Assembly (NCBI GenBank): GCA_905479575.1
Contig: CAJQNB010000032.1
Location: 62,001-126,000 of the forward strand
Length of the DNA stretch: 64,000 nt
Origin: an uncultured Pseudophaeobacter sp.
Lineage (GTDB): Bacteria; Pseudomonadota; Alphaproteobacteria; Rhodobacterales; Rhodobacteraceae
Direction of reading: 5' to 3'
The number at the start of each line of letters is the position of its first letter. Positions within the stretch are counted from its first letter, which is position 1. The notes under the pieces were generated by a model that saw only the letters and a program-made list of their open reading frames with translations, made no database searches and had not been told where the DNA came from. Of the stretch, positions 3,844 to 9,667 are shown piece after piece. A program made the translations under genes and the position numbers.

Positions 3844-4620
3844 CTACCACCGACCACATCCAGCCCGCCACATCAGCCCCGCACGGCGGCGAAATTCGCT
3901 TTGGCCCAGGCTGCCCTCGGCAATACGGTCTGGCTGGGAGAGCGCCTGTTTTAAGATTGCTTTGGCCTGCCAGCCCGACAACAGCGCCCAGCCGGCGTCT
4001 TTTGAAACAAGAGCGCGGTGTTTTTCCGCCTGCAGGATATGTTCCAGGCCTTTGCGGGCCAATTGGCGCAACCCCTCTGGGGTGCCATCCAGCAGCGGGA
4101 TACGGCTGTGGCTCACCAGCTCGGGAATGGCCCTGAACCAGTTGGCGATCCCTACCCCATAGGCATATTTGCGCACCACGGCTTCGTCCGCCGGACCAAG
4201 GGAAGCCGCAGCCATCCACATCAGCCCACCAGAAGTGCCGTCAATATAGCGGTCAAACCCCGGCTCATCTTCAAAGGGGTCTTTGTAGATATCCCACCTG
4301 CGGGCCTCGGCCATGGGGTCAATATATGTGGCGAGATCCGCGCGCAGTAACCGGCCCAGAGGGGTGGCAACATGGTGGCGTCTGACCGCACCGCCCTGGG
4401 CGATCTCAGCGCCAATATCACGCCACCATTGCACCCGCATCTCGGCGATCATGCTTTCCTGACTGGCCCAGGGGGCCCGCGCCAGTTCAAGATTAAACGC
4501 GTAAAGCGCAAACAGCAGCGGCCGCGCCGCAACCGGGGCCGCCATGGTCGCCAGAAACCGGTCTGGGTCGCCCTGCTGGACCAGCTCTGCACAGCTGGAG
4601 AGGTCTTCGTCAAAATGCAT
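3844..4620 (-). CDS. Squalene/phytoene synthase family protein (NDUFAF6-like)
   Basis: 258 residues from ATG 4620. The motif MRVQWWRDIGAEI and the segment PLFALYAFNLELARAP are typical of the short squalene/phytoene-synthase-like proteins related to mitochondrial NDUFAF6, a complex I assembly factor. They usually lack the paired DxxxD catalytic motifs of true carotenoid synthases, and I do not see such a pair here. It is the last gene of the cysS-cimA-hydrolase operon and overlaps the hydrolase gene by 11 bases. A role in respiratory complex assembly or isoprenoid chemistry is inference only. Confidence 0.75.
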   Translation of the reverse strand: MHFDEDLSSCAELVQQGDPDRFLATMAAPVAARPLLFALYAFNLELARAPWASQESMIAEMRVQWWRDIGAEIAQGGAVRRHHVATPLGRLLRADLATYIDPMAEARRWDIYKDPFEDEPGFDRYIDGTSGGLMWMAAASLGPADEAVVRKYAYGVGIANWFRAIPELVSHSRIPLLDGTPEGLRQLARKGLEHILQAEKHRALVSKDAGWALLSGWQAKAILKQALSQPDRIAEGSLGQSEFRRRAGLMWRAGCGRW

Positions 4621-5593
4621 CCAAATATCCCCGAATTGCCGCCAAAGTTTGTGGCGCATCAACCAGATCTAGATGACCTGTATCTTCCAGGACCTGAAAG
4701 GCTCCCTTGTCTGTTTCCGCCTCCATCAATGGGCGATAGGCCTCAGCGATAAAGGCCTCATCCTGCGCGCCAGCAAGCAGAAGAAACTCCGGTAGCGACC
4801 TGATATCACTCAGATAGTCAGATCTCGGCGCGTAGGATTTATTAAGCCGGTAACTGTAAGAGGTTGTTGCCAGATGCCCCAGTGGCCCCTGCAGAACCTC
4901 CGCTGGCATATTGAACTGAATGACCGGCAGGCGGTTCCAGGCCTTGATGCCAACCGCATTGAGCATCGACAGCCCGATGATGCGGCGCAACAAGGGCTGC
5001 GCCCAGCCGCCGGAATTGGCACGCATGGTGGGGGCGCTATGATGCAGAAAGGGCGCCAATAACACCGCGCCATCCAACAGATCCCCCTGTGCACCACCAG
5101 CAAAGCGCACCACCAGACCACCACCTGAGGAATGGCCGACCAGGACGACCTTTTGATCCAGTCCAACCCTAGCCGTAATCAGATCCGCCAGATCATCCTC
5201 CAACTGGCCGATATAGTTGACATCTCCGCGCCTGCCGGGCTGCGCTCCATGACCTCGAAGATCCGGCACCAGGACGGTTCCTGCGAGCTGCGGCGCCAGA
5301 TGTGAAAACTGCAACCCATTCCAGCCGGAGCCGTGCACCAGGACAATCAGTGGCCCATCCCCATTGGAATAGGACCTTACCTGAAGCCCGTAACCATCTC
5401 TCATATATATGGTTTCTGGATCGATAGAGGGAGCCTCCTCAGCCTGAGGTTTGTCCTGCAGCAGGCTTGTGAAATCCAGGGTCGGCGCTGCAGGCTCAAT
5501 GGGTGTAACAGGCTGTGACAAGATCAGGCCAAGCGGGATAAGCGCGGTGATCCCTGCTGAGATCGCGATAAACTTTAGCGCCTGGGGGATCAC
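4610..5593 (-). CDS. Membrane-anchored alpha/beta hydrolase (lysophospholipase-like)
   Basis: 327 residues. An N-terminal hydrophobic helix (about residues 5-27) followed by a Pro-rich linker suggests a membrane anchor with the catalytic domain outside the cytoplasm. The catalytic set is visible: HGSGWNG, nucleophile elbow GHSSG (Ser155), Asp in AGAQDEAF and His in EDTGHLDL. GTG 5593 is chosen because it overlaps the cimA stop as GTGA and has GGAG seven bases upstream; the alternative ATG at 5626 would lie inside cimA. Lysophospholipase or esterase activity is a family-level guess. Confidence 0.8.
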   Translation of the reverse strand: MIPQALKFIAISAGITALIPLGLILSQPVTPIEPAAPTLDFTSLLQDKPQAEEAPSIDPETIYMRDGYGLQVRSYSNGDGPLIVLVHGSGWNGLQFSHLAPQLAGTVLVPDLRGHGAQPGRRGDVNYIGQLEDDLADLITARVGLDQKVVLVGHSSGGGLVVRFAGGAQGDLLDGAVLLAPFLHHSAPTMRANSGGWAQPLLRRIIGLSMLNAVGIKAWNRLPVIQFNMPAEVLQGPLGHLATTSYSYRLNKSYAPRSDYLSDIRSLPEFLLLAGAQDEAFIAEAYRPLMEAETDKGAFQVLEDTGHLDLVDAPQTLAAIRGYLDAF

Positions 5594-7212
5594 TTTAGCG
5601 CTCCGCTGTCCCGCATCAGTTTCCACCGCATGGCATCCAGCAAAGCCTCAAAAGAGGCGTCTATTATATTGGCGCTGACGCCAACAGTGGACCAACGGCG
5701 CCCCTGCCCGTCTTCACTGTCGATGATAACACGGGTCACAGCCTCGGTACCGCCCTGGGTGATCCGCACTTTGAAATCCACCAGATGCATATCGTTGATA
5801 ATCGCTGAATACCGCCCCAGATCCTTGGCCAGCGCCTTTGCCAGTGCATTCACCGGCCCCCGGTCACTGCCGGTTTCATCCATCGACTCGCTGACAGAGA
5901 GACGCTTTTCACCATCAACCTTGACCACCACAACAGCCTCCGAGAGGCTAATCATGCGATTATATTTGTTCTTGCGACGCTCCACGGTGACTTTGTAGCG
6001 CTTGACCTCAAAGAAATCGGTGCTCTGCCCCAGTTCTTCCCGGGCCAGCAGCTCAAACGACGCCTGCGCCGTATCATAGGAATAACCCTCGGCCTCACGC
6101 TCTTTGATGCGATCAAGAATACGCGCCAGGGCCGGGTCGCCCTTGGCAACCTCCAGCCCGGCATCCATCAGGCGTTTGCGCAGGTTGGACTGGCCGGCCT
6201 GGTTTGACATCGGTATGATCCGCGCATTGCCGACCAACTCAGGGGCGATATGCTCATAGGTGGTTGGGTCTTTGAGGATCGCGCTGGCGTGCAACCCAGC
6301 CTTATGAGCAAAGGCCGAGGCACCGACATAGGGCGCCTGTTTCGTTGGCACCCGGTTCAGGATGTCGTCTAACATCCGGCTGAGCTTGGTCAATCCGGTA
6401 AGCGCCTCTTGGCTGACGCCAATGTCGAACTGATCGGCATAGGGTTGTTTCAGCAGCAGGGTCGGGATCAAGGTGGTCAGATTGGCATTGCCACAGCGTT
6501 CCCCCAACCCGTTCAGGGTGCCCTGTACCTGGCGTGCCCCGGCCTCAATCGCGGCCAGAGAACAGGCCACGGCATTTTCGGTATCATTATGGGTGTGAAT
6601 GCCAAGACTTGCGCCCGGAATGCCTGCCGCTATGACCTCGGCCACGATACGGCGCACTTCACTGGGCATGGCGCCGCCATTGGTGTCACATAACACCACC
6701 CAACGCGCCCCTGCATCCAGCGCCGCGCGGCATGCCGCCAGCGCGTATTCAGGATTGGCCTTGTAGCCATCAAAGAAATGCTCAGCATCATATAGCGCCT
6801 CGCGCCCCTGGCTCACCAAATGCGCCACAGAGGCCCGGATATTTTCCAGGTTTTCCTCCAGGCTAATGCCAAGCGCAGCCGTCACATGGTAATCATGCGA
6901 CTTGCCAACCAGGCAAACCGCCGAGGTGCCGGCATTCATCACCGCTGCCAACACATCGTCATTCTCTGCTGAGCGCCCTGCCCGTTTGGTCATGCCAAAG
7001 GCGGTCATGGTGGCGCGGGTCTTGGGCGCTTCGTCAAAAAACGCACTGTCGGTGGGGTTGGCACCGGGCCAGCCGCCCTCGATGTAATCAATCCCCAGAT
7101 CATCCAGCGCCTGGGTGATCTGCTTCTTTTCGGCAGTGGAGAATTGCACCCCCTGGGTCTGCTGGCCATCGCGCAGGGTGGTGTCGTAAAGATAGAGCCG
7201 TTCGCGCTGCAT
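5590..7212 (-). CDS. cimA: Citramalate synthase
   Basis: About 540 residues, the full CimA length. It condenses pyruvate and acetyl-CoA to (R)-citramalate, the threonine-independent entry to isoleucine synthesis. The HMGL-like TIM barrel starts with YDTTLRDGQQTQGV, carries the metal site GIHTHNDTENA and ends in a LeuA-type C-terminal allosteric domain (GGTEAVTRVIIDSEDG). The junction with cysS reads GTGATG: ATG 7212 has GGAGGGG upstream, and GTG 7215 is an alternative. It is the second structural gene of the operon behind the cysteine leader. Homocitrate or 2-isopropylmalate synthase is less likely given the overall pattern. Confidence 0.9.
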   Translation of the reverse strand: MQRERLYLYDTTLRDGQQTQGVQFSTAEKKQITQALDDLGIDYIEGGWPGANPTDSAFFDEAPKTRATMTAFGMTKRAGRSAENDDVLAAVMNAGTSAVCLVGKSHDYHVTAALGISLEENLENIRASVAHLVSQGREALYDAEHFFDGYKANPEYALAACRAALDAGARWVVLCDTNGGAMPSEVRRIVAEVIAAGIPGASLGIHTHNDTENAVACSLAAIEAGARQVQGTLNGLGERCGNANLTTLIPTLLLKQPYADQFDIGVSQEALTGLTKLSRMLDDILNRVPTKQAPYVGASAFAHKAGLHASAILKDPTTYEHIAPELVGNARIIPMSNQAGQSNLRKRLMDAGLEVAKGDPALARILDRIKEREAEGYSYDTAQASFELLAREELGQSTDFFEVKRYKVTVERRKNKYNRMISLSEAVVVVKVDGEKRLSVSESMDETGSDRGPVNALAKALAKDLGRYSAIINDMHLVDFKVRITQGGTEAVTRVIIDSEDGQGRRWSTVGVSANIIDASFEALLDAMRWKLMRDSGALK

Positions 7213-8621
7213 CACAGCCCCTCCAGTTTGGCCGCGTCAAATCCCGGCCCGGGCACCAGTTCAACACCGGCCTTGCTCATCCGCACTTCCAACCCTGCCG
7301 CGACAAATGCAGCCTTCAACCGGTCGACCTGCGAGAAGTCCTTGCTCTGCATGGCGGCTTCCCGTGCCTCCAGCAACTGCGCCGCATAGGCCGACAGATC
7401 GAAATCGGGCGTCTCTGCCCACTCCCCGAGCGCGTCACTCAAAAGTCCCATCAACCGCGCCGATGCCAACAATCCAGGCCCATCGCCAGCGGCGGCCAGT
7501 TTGTGCATCTCGGCAATGGCCCCGGCGGTGTTGAGATCATCAGCCAGTGCGTCCAGAACCGCGGCAGCAGCGTTGGCGGCGGGCTCGATGCCCGCTGTCA
7601 GCGCACGCCACTTGCGCAGCGTTGCCTCCGCTTCTTTTGCCTTTTTCTCAGTCCAGTCCATTGGTTTCCGGTAATGGGTCTGCAAAAACACAAATCGTAT
7701 CACCTCGCCGGGAATGCCCTGGACCAGCAAGTCATGCACAGTAAAGAAGTTGCCCAGGGATTTGGACATCTTCTTGCCCTCGACCTGCAGCATCTCATTG
7801 TGCAGCCAGTAGTGGGCAAAACTGTCATCACCATTGGCGCAGCAGCTTTGGGCTATTTCGTTCTCATGGTGGGGAAACATCAGATCATTGCCGCCGCCGT
7901 GAATATCAAACGTCGCCCCCAGCAGTTCCTGGGCCATGGCGGAGCACTCAATATGCCAGCCCGGACGACCACGCCCCCAGGGACTGTCCCACCCCGGCAG
8001 CTCATCCGTGGAGGGCTTCCACAGGACAAAATCCATCGGGTTCTTCTTATAGGGCGCCACTTCGACGCGGGCACCGGCAATCATATCATCGACTGACCGC
8101 CCGGACAGGGCGCCATAGTGTTGCTTCCAGCTGTCTACGGCAAAAAGCACATGGCCCTCGGCCGCGTAGGCATGGCCCTTGGCGATCAGATCCTCGATCA
8201 TTGCAACCATCTGGCCAATATACTGCGTCGCCCGTGGCATGTGGTCGGGTTCCAGGGCGCCCAGTTTGCCCATGTCGTTCAGATACCAGCCGATGGTCTC
8301 TTCGGTGCGCTCTGCAACCAGCTGTTCCAGGGATCCGGGGGCGCCTGCCTCTTTGCGCGCCAGAGCTGTAGCGTTGATCTTGTCATCGACATCAGTGAAG
8401 TTGCGCACGTAAGTGACATGCGCTGCGCCATAAACCTGCCGCAGCAACCGATAGAGCACATCAAACACCACCACAGGCCGTGCATTGCCCAGATGCGCCC
8501 GGTCATAGACCGTGGGCCCGCAGAGATACATCCGCACATTGTTCGCATCAATCGGGGTAAACTCCGACTTTTTGCGGGTTTTGGTATTGTGCAGTTTAAT
8601 CACGGTGTTCGAGGTCATCAT
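7212..8621 (-). CDS. cysS: Cysteinyl-tRNA synthetase
   Basis: 469 residues, a class I monomeric aminoacyl-tRNA synthetase charging tRNA-Cys. Visible features are the zinc ligand Cys34 in [10 protein letters not shown], the HIGH-equivalent HLGN (43-46), the [10 protein letters not shown] and HHENEIAQS zinc/active-site segments, and KMSKS near residue 280. The start is ATG 8621 (a tandem ATGATG) with GGAG seven bases upstream. It heads the four-gene operon with cimA. A Cys-rich leader peptide ends about 100 bases upstream, pointing to regulation by Cys-tRNA supply. Confidence 0.97.
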
Positions 8622-8720
8622 GACAGCTCCTTGGACGGACACGGATGGGCTGAGCGCGCAGCGCGGGCATAGCAACTTGTCAAGGTGAAGAAAACGACAG
8701 AAACCAGCCCGCTGAGGAAA

Positions 8721-8765
8721 TCAGCAGGAAATGCAGCAAATAATCAGGGTGCAGGTTTTAGTCAT
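8721..8765 (-). CDS. Cysteine-rich leader peptide upstream of cysS
   Basis: A 14-codon ORF, MTKTCTLIICCISC, ends in TGA. Four of 14 codons are TGC (positions 5, 10, 11 and 14). A perfect AGGAGG lies 6 bases before the ATG (8772-8777), as good as any ribosome site in the window. The ORF stops 99 bases before cysS and reads in the same direction. The stop codon is inside a small hairpin (GCTGA/TCAGC, 8711-8725), and downstream GGGCTG (8705-8710) can pair with CAGCCC (8647-8652). This layout is that of a ribosome-mediated attenuator sensing Cys-tRNA. I see no U-tract terminator, so control would be translational or Rho-dependent. It is too short to be found by ordinary gene calling. Confidence 0.7.
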   Translation of the reverse strand: MTKTCTLIICCISC

Positions 8766-8824
8766 GCCAAACCTCCTAGCATGTCTTATTTGGTCCGCCA
8801 AGGGGGAAGTCTAGCGGCGTGGCC

Positions 8825-9352
8825 CTAGAAACGAAACGCCGCGCCGATAGAAATCCGGCTGGGGGATTGACCTTGATGTGCTGCCGACCCTAACGGCGCG
8901 TGATGCAGGTATTCACCTGTCAACTGCAGCGCACGGTTCAGGGAGACCCGAACGCCAATGCCCAAAGTGTTGGTCTCTTCCTGGCCGCTAACTGCCTGCT
9001 CCCGCTGGTGCCCCAAAGAAATATAGCCAAGGCTGTGGCCAAAATCATATCCAGCCCGCAGGCTCACCTGCTCTGTCCTGGCTGTGGCTCCAAATCCAGA
9101 CAGCAAAGAGCCGTTGCCGCGACTGTAGGTTCCACCCAGCACAAGTTGCCCATAGTCCCTGTCAGCGGAAAACTCCAAGCTGTCATCAGCCTGGTTAAAG
9201 CTTTCGTCTGTTGCGCCGATTTGTTCGTGTTGAGGTGAGAAAAAGTTGGGAGAGTTCCAGTCCCCGGACATCGCCGGAACGGCCACAGCCGAAAACGTGC
9301 CCACAGCGAGCAATAGTCCGATTTTTGTCCAATTTATCTGCGCAGCGGGCAT
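8825..9352 (-). CDS. Small outer-membrane beta-barrel protein, hypothetical
   Basis: 175 residues. A signal peptide (about 1-27, ending near AVPAMSG) is followed by alternating polar/aromatic strands (YGQLVLGGTYS, VSLRAGYDFG, LGYISLGHQRE, LQLTGEYLHHAP) and a C-terminal RISIGAAFRF. The final Phe and alternating pattern are the usual beta-signal for BAM-dependent insertion. The size suits an 8-strand barrel. No enzymatic motif is seen. It lies upstream of, and in the same direction as, the cysS leader with only 59 bases between, so read-through into the cysS operon is possible. Confidence 0.6.
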   Translation of the reverse strand: MPAAQINWTKIGLLLAVGTFSAVAVPAMSGDWNSPNFFSPQHEQIGATDESFNQADDSLEFSADRDYGQLVLGGTYSRGNGSLLSGFGATARTEQVSLRAGYDFGHSLGYISLGHQREQAVSGQEETNTLGIGVRVSLNRALQLTGEYLHHAPLGSAAHQGQSPSRISIGAAFRF

Positions 9353-9667
9353 GATTTCTTGCCTGTTCTAGCGCCGTTCACAGCGCGGTATGTCCTGAGC
9401 CTCCATTTTCGGAGAAATACCTTAACGAGCTGTTCCATTTTTTCAGGGAAAGGGCTCGAAACGGAAAGAAAATCTGCGCCCTCAGCCAGAGGCGGCTGAG
9501 GGAAAGGAACATTGTTGAAAAACCGCTGAAATGGCCCTGGAGCCATAGCCTTCCATCGCAACGGTCGCGCATGAAAAAGAGGTCGCATTTTTCACACAAG
9601 TCGCAAACAGGTTAGAATCGGTCCTAAAAACCGCCAAGGCTGTACGGGGGAACAGGAGGAATTCTTT
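9353..9667. other. Intergenic region, promoter side of the barrel gene and MttB
   Basis: No credible gene on either strand; the two overlapping minus-strand ORFs here lack ribosome sites and family features. It holds a hairpin CCTCAGCC/GGCTGAGG (9480-9501). A promoter-like pair TTCACA...TTAGAA (about 9590-9617) faces right, 5' of the small ORF and the mttB-like gene. Confidence 0.4.

Follow-up and report, generated by a model that had tools for sequence, protein, structure and literature searches.

A putatively leaderless leader peptide rich in cysteine and isoleucine upstream of cysS-cimA in Rhodobacteraceae: a candidate two-input translational attenuator

The window analyzed here is a stretch of 64,000 nucleotides from an uncultured Pseudophaeobacter sp. 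(contig CAJQNB010000032.1, positions 62,001 to 126,000), and all coordinates refer to it. Its minus strand carries cysS, encoding cysteinyl-tRNA synthetase (7212 to 8621; TIGR00435, 417.6 bits against a cut-off of 340), followed by cimA, encoding citramalate synthase (5590 to 7215; TIGR00977, 614.2 bits, cut-off 450); the stop of the former and the start of the latter overlap in the sequence GTGATG. Next in the operon, on the same strand, come an alpha/beta hydrolase-like gene (4610 to 5626; matches below curated cut-offs only, mostly to alpha/beta hydrolases) and a squalene/phytoene-synthase-like gene (3844 to 4662; PF00494, 67.3 bits, cut-off 26, with 3847 to 4614 scanned). Upstream of cysS, a putatively leaderless 14-codon ORF runs from an ATG at 8765-8763 to a TGA at 8723-8721, also on the minus strand, and encodes MTKTCTLIICCISC, with Cys at codons 5, 10, 11, and 14 and with three Ile codons. 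A first-pass annotation of the sequence alone had proposed this ORF, with its four Cys codons, as a sensor of Cys-tRNA, and the elements it listed are in place: the ORF itself (8765-8721), the 99 bases between its end and the cysS ATG at 8621, and an AGGAGG (8777-8772) at 6-base spacing upstream of the leader ATG.

Judged by comparison with relatives, the 14-codon leader is real and has counterparts in most sampled genera of the family. Regions upstream of cysS were compared first in 110 relatives and then in a one-genome-per-genus sample of 198 family genomes, 192 of them with cysS; 140 loci were taken, 139 with at least 250 bases upstream, and because the list was ordered by match score, leaving out 52 of the 192 genomes, in part by choice, makes the sample lean to nearer relatives. 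Leaders were called by promoter geometry alone, ignoring composition (false-positive rate of 2.3% in 1510 shuffles), or by Ile plus Cys content (0.6% in 1510 shuffles). An ATG ORF of 9 to 20 codons with at least four Ile plus Cys codons, placed like the window leader, was matched in 0.6% of 1510 dinucleotide-shuffled upstream regions versus 119/132 cimA-linked genomes (118/131 counted first, plus locus L278 of genome G199, later found to be cimA-linked). The promoter rule called 118 leaders, 114 from the one-per-genus sample and 4 from genomes chosen for lacking cimA. Such a leader is carried, as far as these upstream regions tell, by this Roseobacter-Ruegeria group bacterium and most of its sampled relatives. 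In the cysS upstream regions of 14 genomes from other families, no arrangement of promoter, upstream ORF (uORF), and downstream helix (P2, below) like that of the family was seen by eye. One of these loci, from another alphaproteobacterial family (L238, genome G039), has a short ATG ORF with two Cys and one Ile before cysS. Additionally, cysS and cimA adjoin in four genomes of other alphaproteobacterial families (G036, G039, G050, and G051), where no similar leader was seen by eye.

Folding of region 8616-8790 was no more stable than that of shuffled sequences (z of 0.16; 111/200 at least as stable), and an Rfam 15 search of 8000-9400 matched no family at E values up to 1. The sole other match in the genome to window positions 8500-9000 covers 49 bases at 78% identity and has no leader; this match (L002, C3:100768-100816), to the leader end and the adjoining helix, lies inside a 551-codon open frame and was dismissed as a chance similarity.

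The amino acid make-up of the 118 promoter-called leaders is strongly biased, with Ile at 29.4%, Cys at 22.8%, and Thr at 13.8% of residues, versus 4.0%, 0.9%, and 4.7%, respectively, in cysS. When the last two codons, which are constrained by pairing, are removed, Ile rises to 33.2% and Cys stands at 22.2%. All 118 leaders hold at least one Ile and at least one Cys; at least two Ile occur in 115 and at least two Cys in 108, with a single Cys in 10 and a single Ile in 3. The predicted conservation of the Cys codons in relatives is borne out, as the CC pair is present in 83/118. Among Ile codons, AUA is avoided in leaders (1/435 versus 139/2828 in cysS). The order of the two residues varies widely (85 different I/C patterns among the 118 leaders), a variety that fits the sensing of codons better than a peptide of fixed sequence that arrests the ribosome, and suggests that what counts is which codons are present. 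The Cys codons correspond to the amino acid that the cysS product uses and the Ile codons to the amino acid whose synthesis involves cimA, as expected of a leader that senses amino acids. A sensor of Cys-tRNA alone, as proposed initially, does not describe the element well, since Ile codons are commoner than Cys codons and the leader goes with cimA.

The region ahead of the uORF resembles a promoter placed for transcription to start at the ATG itself. A -35 element, TTGGCG (8801-8796, minus strand), has a TTG conserved in the family at fixed spacing from a -10 element, TAGGAG (8778-8773, minus strand; of the form TANNNN, without T at -7), which is preceded by TGC and contains most of the AGGAGG. 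When 100 distinct upstream regions were aligned on the uORF ATG, TTG appeared near -35, TGCTA at about -15 to -11, and C or T at -1 (98%). The TA of the -10 lies 12 to 13 bases ahead of the A of the ATG in 108/118 promoter-called leaders, a position that is partly built in, as the choice of start favored ATGs with an upstream TA and the set was called by promoter score; the pyrimidine at -1 and the scarcity of Shine-Dalgarno (SD) matches are independent of the leader-calling rule. A 4-base SD match precedes the uORF in 15/117 genomes versus 100/117 before cysS in the same genomes. The reading of AGGAGG as a ribosome-binding site (RBS) is probably wrong: it lies inside and beside the -10, so that it is probably not in the RNA, and it is not conserved as an SD. 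From promoter conservation, the uORF is probably leaderless, with a transcript whose first base would be the A of the ATG (8765) or one adjacent to it. A strict sigma-70 consensus scan of 8560-8860 found no promoter because it requires the -7T, which alphaproteobacterial sigma-70 promoters mostly lack (PMC8407463).

The element is not new. Brewer et al. (2021, RNA Biol; PMC8632094) reported 145 examples of a motif named uORFC-8-2, located exclusively before cysS in Rhodobacterales, with tandem Cys codons, two stems, and a U-run, and suggested that it senses Cys-tRNA as an attenuator with an intrinsic terminator at its end; the first-pass annotation knew of no such description in Rhodobacterales. 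The window leader and uORFC-8-2 are almost certainly the same element: each is a uORF before cysS in Rhodobacterales (here, TIGR00435 downstream and named relatives that are mostly Ruegeria, Leisingera, Phaeobacter, Pseudophaeobacter, and allied genera) with a conserved AUG and tandem Cys codons, as in the window and the leaders with CC counted above, and with surrounding stems for which ribosome-mediated attenuation was proposed. Set beside the two-stem and U-run text description in PMC8632094, the first helix of the window includes Cys14 and the stop, with a weak T-rich tail after it. The Cys pair lies usually at codons 14-15 in uORFC-8-2 versus 10-11 here, and a leaderless start, competition between the second helix and the RBS, and an internal promoter were not seen in the text of PMC8632094. 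The cysteine half of the sensing was thus predicted in print in 2021, whereas that main text, which uses none of the words isoleucine, cimA, and citramalate, contains neither the isoleucine half nor the link with cimA. Among the papers listed from a literature set that leaves out most subscription journals, assessed from their titles and the first lines of their abstracts, no further description of a cysS, Cys/Ile, or cimA leader was found, and in that set the name uORFC-8-2 was found in PMC8632094 alone.

The leader follows the genomic arrangement of cimA. The canonical leader is present in 121/132 genomes in which cysS and cimA are linked versus 0/12 in which they are not (Fisher P = 1.3e-11, a value inflated because the genomes are related). 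The 12 unlinked genomes represent nine genera, and 8 of them were chosen for lacking cimA; in the one-per-genus sample alone, the counts are 121/132 versus 0/4 (P = 1e-4). Two unlinked loci of one cimA-less genus (L158 and L249), scored as without the canonical leader, carry a variant, MDWICCLCRA; counting it as a leader gives 2/12 (P = 2.6e-8), and counting locus L200 as well gives 3/13 (P = 9.7e-8). This variant has three Cys, one Ile, and a weak -35, and it is possibly a leader that lost Ile codons. L200 (genome G136) carries a leader although, with 658 bases after cysS, our 600-base rule would class it as cimA-less; it was set aside by judgement because the stretch after cysS is repetitive and ends the contig. 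It is the exception among seven undecidable loci kept outside the linkage count (L027, L163, L200, L256, L257, L259, and L260), all with a leader, of which the other six end at most 300 bases after cysS. Conversely, the canonical leader is missing in 11/132 linked genomes, two of which (L169 and L171) have a borderline short ORF. In one genome scored as unlinked (G079), cimA lies 770 kb from cysS; a leader was sought before both genes and neither has one, which disposes of an independent leader at the separated cimA there.

A search for cimA in 395 family genomes (requested as at least 95% complete) left 17 without a match of cimA strength, read by eye from best E values of 1e-7 to 1e-46 versus 1e-158 or better in the others; in four of the 17, the best match was 31 to 33% identical, which resembles what leuA would give. 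The cysS upstream region was compared in 16 cimA-less genomes; genome G410 gave no cysS match. Adjacency was undecidable in five because cysS lies at or near a contig end, and all five have the leader; among the 11 decided, 9 lack the leader and 2, of one genus, have MDWICCLCRA. At L249, the squalene/phytoene-synthase-like gene directly follows cysS, cimA and the hydrolase-like gene are missing, and a convergent transporter-like gene is kept; since the translations after cysS at L158, L179, and L197 are similar to those at L249, cimA appears to be missing from an otherwise kept operon. On a FastTree phylogeny of cysS, linkage changed about 8 times and the leader 17 times, and five independent pairs on well-supported branches gave on average 3.9 in agreement and 0 opposed (sign test, P = 0.125). 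As gauged from these genomes, the counts show a strong association of leader and cimA and the tree is consistent with it, but independent pairs alone do not make it significant.

Two overlapping helices surround the end of the uORF. The proposed pairing GCTGA/TCAGC around the stop is present within an 8-pair stem, CCTGCTGA/TCAGCGGG (8728-8721 with 8715-8708), which we call P1 (8708 to 8728, minus strand); in it, region 1 (CCUGCUGA, from codons 13-14 and the stop) pairs with region 2 (UCAGCGGG). Across genera, native halves pair better than permuted ones (-9.98 versus -9.12, z of -7.2, n = 118), and the second-last codon ends in CC in 80/118 parsed elements, as pairing with GG in P1 would require. 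The second helix, P2 (region 2:3; 8663 to 8712, minus strand), joins GCGGGC (8712-8707) to GCCCGC (8668-8663) and shares GCGGG with P1; its permutation signal is stronger (-19.66 versus -17.40, z of -9.5, n = 112), and its inner part has none (z of -0.8). The competing helix GGGCTG/CAGCCC named in the first-pass annotation has both its halves in the window and was rejected because the closest relatives compared do not conserve CAGCCC; the partner of GGGC in the family is GCCCGC. The P2 loop contains a conserved pyrimidine tract (8681 to 8702, minus strand), which in a pairing model binds the cysS RBS when P2 is open. That RBS, AAGGAG (8632-8627), together with an ATG at 8621-8619 or 8618-8616, forms region 4 (8616 to 8632, minus strand), and its pairing with the P2 loop and 3' arm (3:4) is also better than when permuted (-13.18 versus -11.91, z of -6.0, n = 119). 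The z values of P1, P2, and 3:4 are too large, as permutations ignore relatedness.

Covariation is thin. In alignment A1 (50 rows; 6 of 56 non-redundant elements, L016, L026, L028, L097, L098, and L108, were dropped for inserts or an unclear P2), paired columns reach 82.5% versus 82.0% shuffled for P1 and 87.6% versus 85.4% for P2. RNAalifold on A1 gives a short P1-like helix (part of P1) and no P2, so that P2 rests on the permutation test and its near-invariant arms; the P2 pattern failed in L009, L055, and L089. Four loci (L028, L097, L098, and L108, among them Mameliella and Antarctobacter) have an extra GC-rich inverted repeat in the P1 loop, between the uORF stop and GCGGG. P2 lacks a U-run after it (never more than 3 T in 8 across 119/119), which rules out an intrinsic terminator at that position; no GC-rich hairpin with a U-run was found downstream of the alternative helix. 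The initial view of a leader in which no intrinsic terminator is visible is supported, in that none is convincing.

We modelled the energy needed to open the cysS RBS with a ribosome at different positions. Over 119 leaders, it averaged 9.3 kcal/mol for free RNA, 9.6 with a ribosome at the stop, 7.5 with a stall at codon -4, and 8.1 at codon -8, i.e., an average gain over the stop position of about 2 and 1.5 kcal/mol, respectively. With shuffled untranslated regions, the gain was gone (8.7 free, 8.6 at the stop, and 8.8 at codon -4, the position for which the control was run). The corresponding values for the window are 8.5, 8.0, 5.2, and 6.0. The gain exceeded 1 kcal/mol in 75/119 leaders and was reversed by more than 1 in 9, and at L113 neither stall gave any. 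A 10-base footprint reduced the stop-minus-stall difference to 0.6 at codon -4 and to -0.6, i.e., no gain, at codon -5. In these models, the RNA fits a trp-like 1:2 / 2:3 / 3:4 logic, and as region 4 is the cysS RBS, control looks translational, one of the options the first-pass annotation had named.

The comparison of genomes establishes, at the level of sequence, the conservation of the leader, its Ile plus Cys make-up, the promoter geometry, the link with cimA, and the cross-genus agreement of P1, P2, and 3:4. We propose that this leader-peptide gene, probably leaderless, serves the cysS-cimA operon by reading two charged tRNAs, those of Cys and Ile. Transcription would begin at or beside the A of the leader ATG. 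With both charged tRNAs plentiful, the ribosome would complete the ORF and depart, region 1 would pair with region 2 (P1), and region 3 (the pyrimidine tract and GCCCGC) would be free to cover the cysS RBS. When Cys- or Ile-tRNA is short, the ribosome would stall in the I/C-rich stretch and mask region 1; regions 2 and 3 would then pair (P2), the RBS would open, and cysS would be translated more, with cimA possibly coupled via the stop-start overlap in the window. The switch between the helices is a modelled one, and we infer the sensing of Ile, the translational output, and the coupling of cimA. That the leader raises cysS-cimA expression when either charged tRNA is short has, in our estimate, a probability of about 0.5. 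The fuller statement is slightly more tentative, namely, a two-input (Cys or Ile) translational attenuator with a leaderless ORF, whose inputs match cysS and cimA (which encodes the first enzyme on the way from citramalate to isoleucine) and whose loss tends to accompany the departure of cimA from the operon.

A second promoter-like element lies between the uORF and cysS: TTTTCT (8694-8689) and TATGCC (8671-8666) at 17-base spacing, the latter preceded by TTGC (8666 to 8694, minus strand). A start from it would lie near 8659 and give a leader-free cysS mRNA. The motif T[TA]T[TC]C-N14-18-T[TG]G[CA]TA occurs before cysS in 7/24 genomes without the canonical leader (shuffle mean of 0.01) and 44/127 with it (shuffle mean of 0.23), counts that are not an independent test because the motif was spotted by eye in the same upstream regions first. 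Two of the seven are of one genus, and the 24 include L025, which is outside the leader counts (77 bases upstream, where the region is cut). The strict sigma-70 scan did not report the element. This motif suggests a second, leader-bypassing start downstream of 8721, which bears on a condition that the first-pass annotation had itself set as refuting (cysS mRNA beginning beyond 8721), and is the main reason for caution on the leader's share of cysS expression.

It could even be that such a promoter dominates, leaving the leader minor for cysS and its transcript a side product or small RNA. The motif counts favor this, but the leader's codon make-up is strongly conserved and its RNA pairing reaches the cysS RBS; moreover, the same bases serve P2 and the RBS pairing, so that in genomes with the leader the motif is not independent promoter evidence, and we consider this the least probable of the alternatives. 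Less improbable, although unlikely, is that the Ile codons arise secondarily because the sequence has to be AU-rich, unstructured, and compatible with Cys codons. AUU is indeed commoner among Ile codons in leaders (243/435) than in cysS (537/2828); however, among the remaining amino acids encoded by AU-rich codons, Lys, Phe, and Tyr are seldom used and Asn occurs about as often as in cysS, and the link with cimA would go unexplained.

Two further alternatives keep the leader and change its output. In the published reading (PMC8632094), the leader is a Cys-only attenuator in which transcription ends at a stem and U-run unless a ribosome stalled at Cys codons lets it continue. All 118 leaders do contain Cys, and a terminator scan of the window finds P1 and its T-rich tail, and in 35/119 relatives five or more of 8 bases following P1 are T; such a tail is nevertheless missing in 84/119, and the Ile codons and the cimA link are left unexplained. 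Since the uORF stop lies inside P1, a finishing ribosome would also block this helix, with little or inverted discrimination expected, and we regard termination of this kind as improbable. Slightly more doubtful is Rho-dependent attenuation, in which the same leader and helices would expose the pyrimidine-rich tract after the stop as a Rho loading site, with a transcriptional output. It accords with the conserved tract directly after the ORF and was proposed for terminator-less mycobacterial cys leaders (PMC1262725), but the tract and P2 3' arm prefer the native RBS over permuted ones, a pairing that Rho does not need. For the two-input leader, a translational output is more likely than a terminator-based one. 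Of the earlier reading as a whole, the conserved Cys leader and the alternative pairings at its stop persist, while its novelty, the SD, the GGGCTG/CAGCCC helix, and sensing of Cys alone fall away.

In the trp, thr, and ilv leader-peptide attenuators, the position of the ribosome sets a three-way choice of helices, and the thr and ilv leaders sense more than one amino acid. The cysS leader would share this choice and the reading of several amino acids; it differs in that region 4 is an RBS rather than a terminator and that each of its two amino acids corresponds to a separate gene of the operon. Similar in form is trpL of Sinorhizobium meliloti, also alphaproteobacterial, with a 14-residue leader peptide whose RNA begins at the ATG (leaderless), although it senses tryptophan and acts through a transcription terminator (PMC7298713). 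The leaders of mycobacterial cys operons likewise have Cys codons close to the stop and no conserved terminator hairpin; they belong to other genes and another phylum, they have no conserved hairpins, and no mention of their Ile codons was seen in PMC1262725.

These results emphasize that the published description of uORFC-8-2 merits revision: the element should be regarded as a probably leaderless leader, rich in one amino acid that matches cysS and in another that matches cimA, with an output that is more likely translational than terminator-based. If the proposal is true, it would correct the published reading of a Cys-only leader with a terminator (PMC8632094), and it would suggest why cysS and cimA remain together. 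A single small RNA switch would then couple the charging of cysteine to the synthesis of isoleucine in most of the genera sampled from a large bacterial family.
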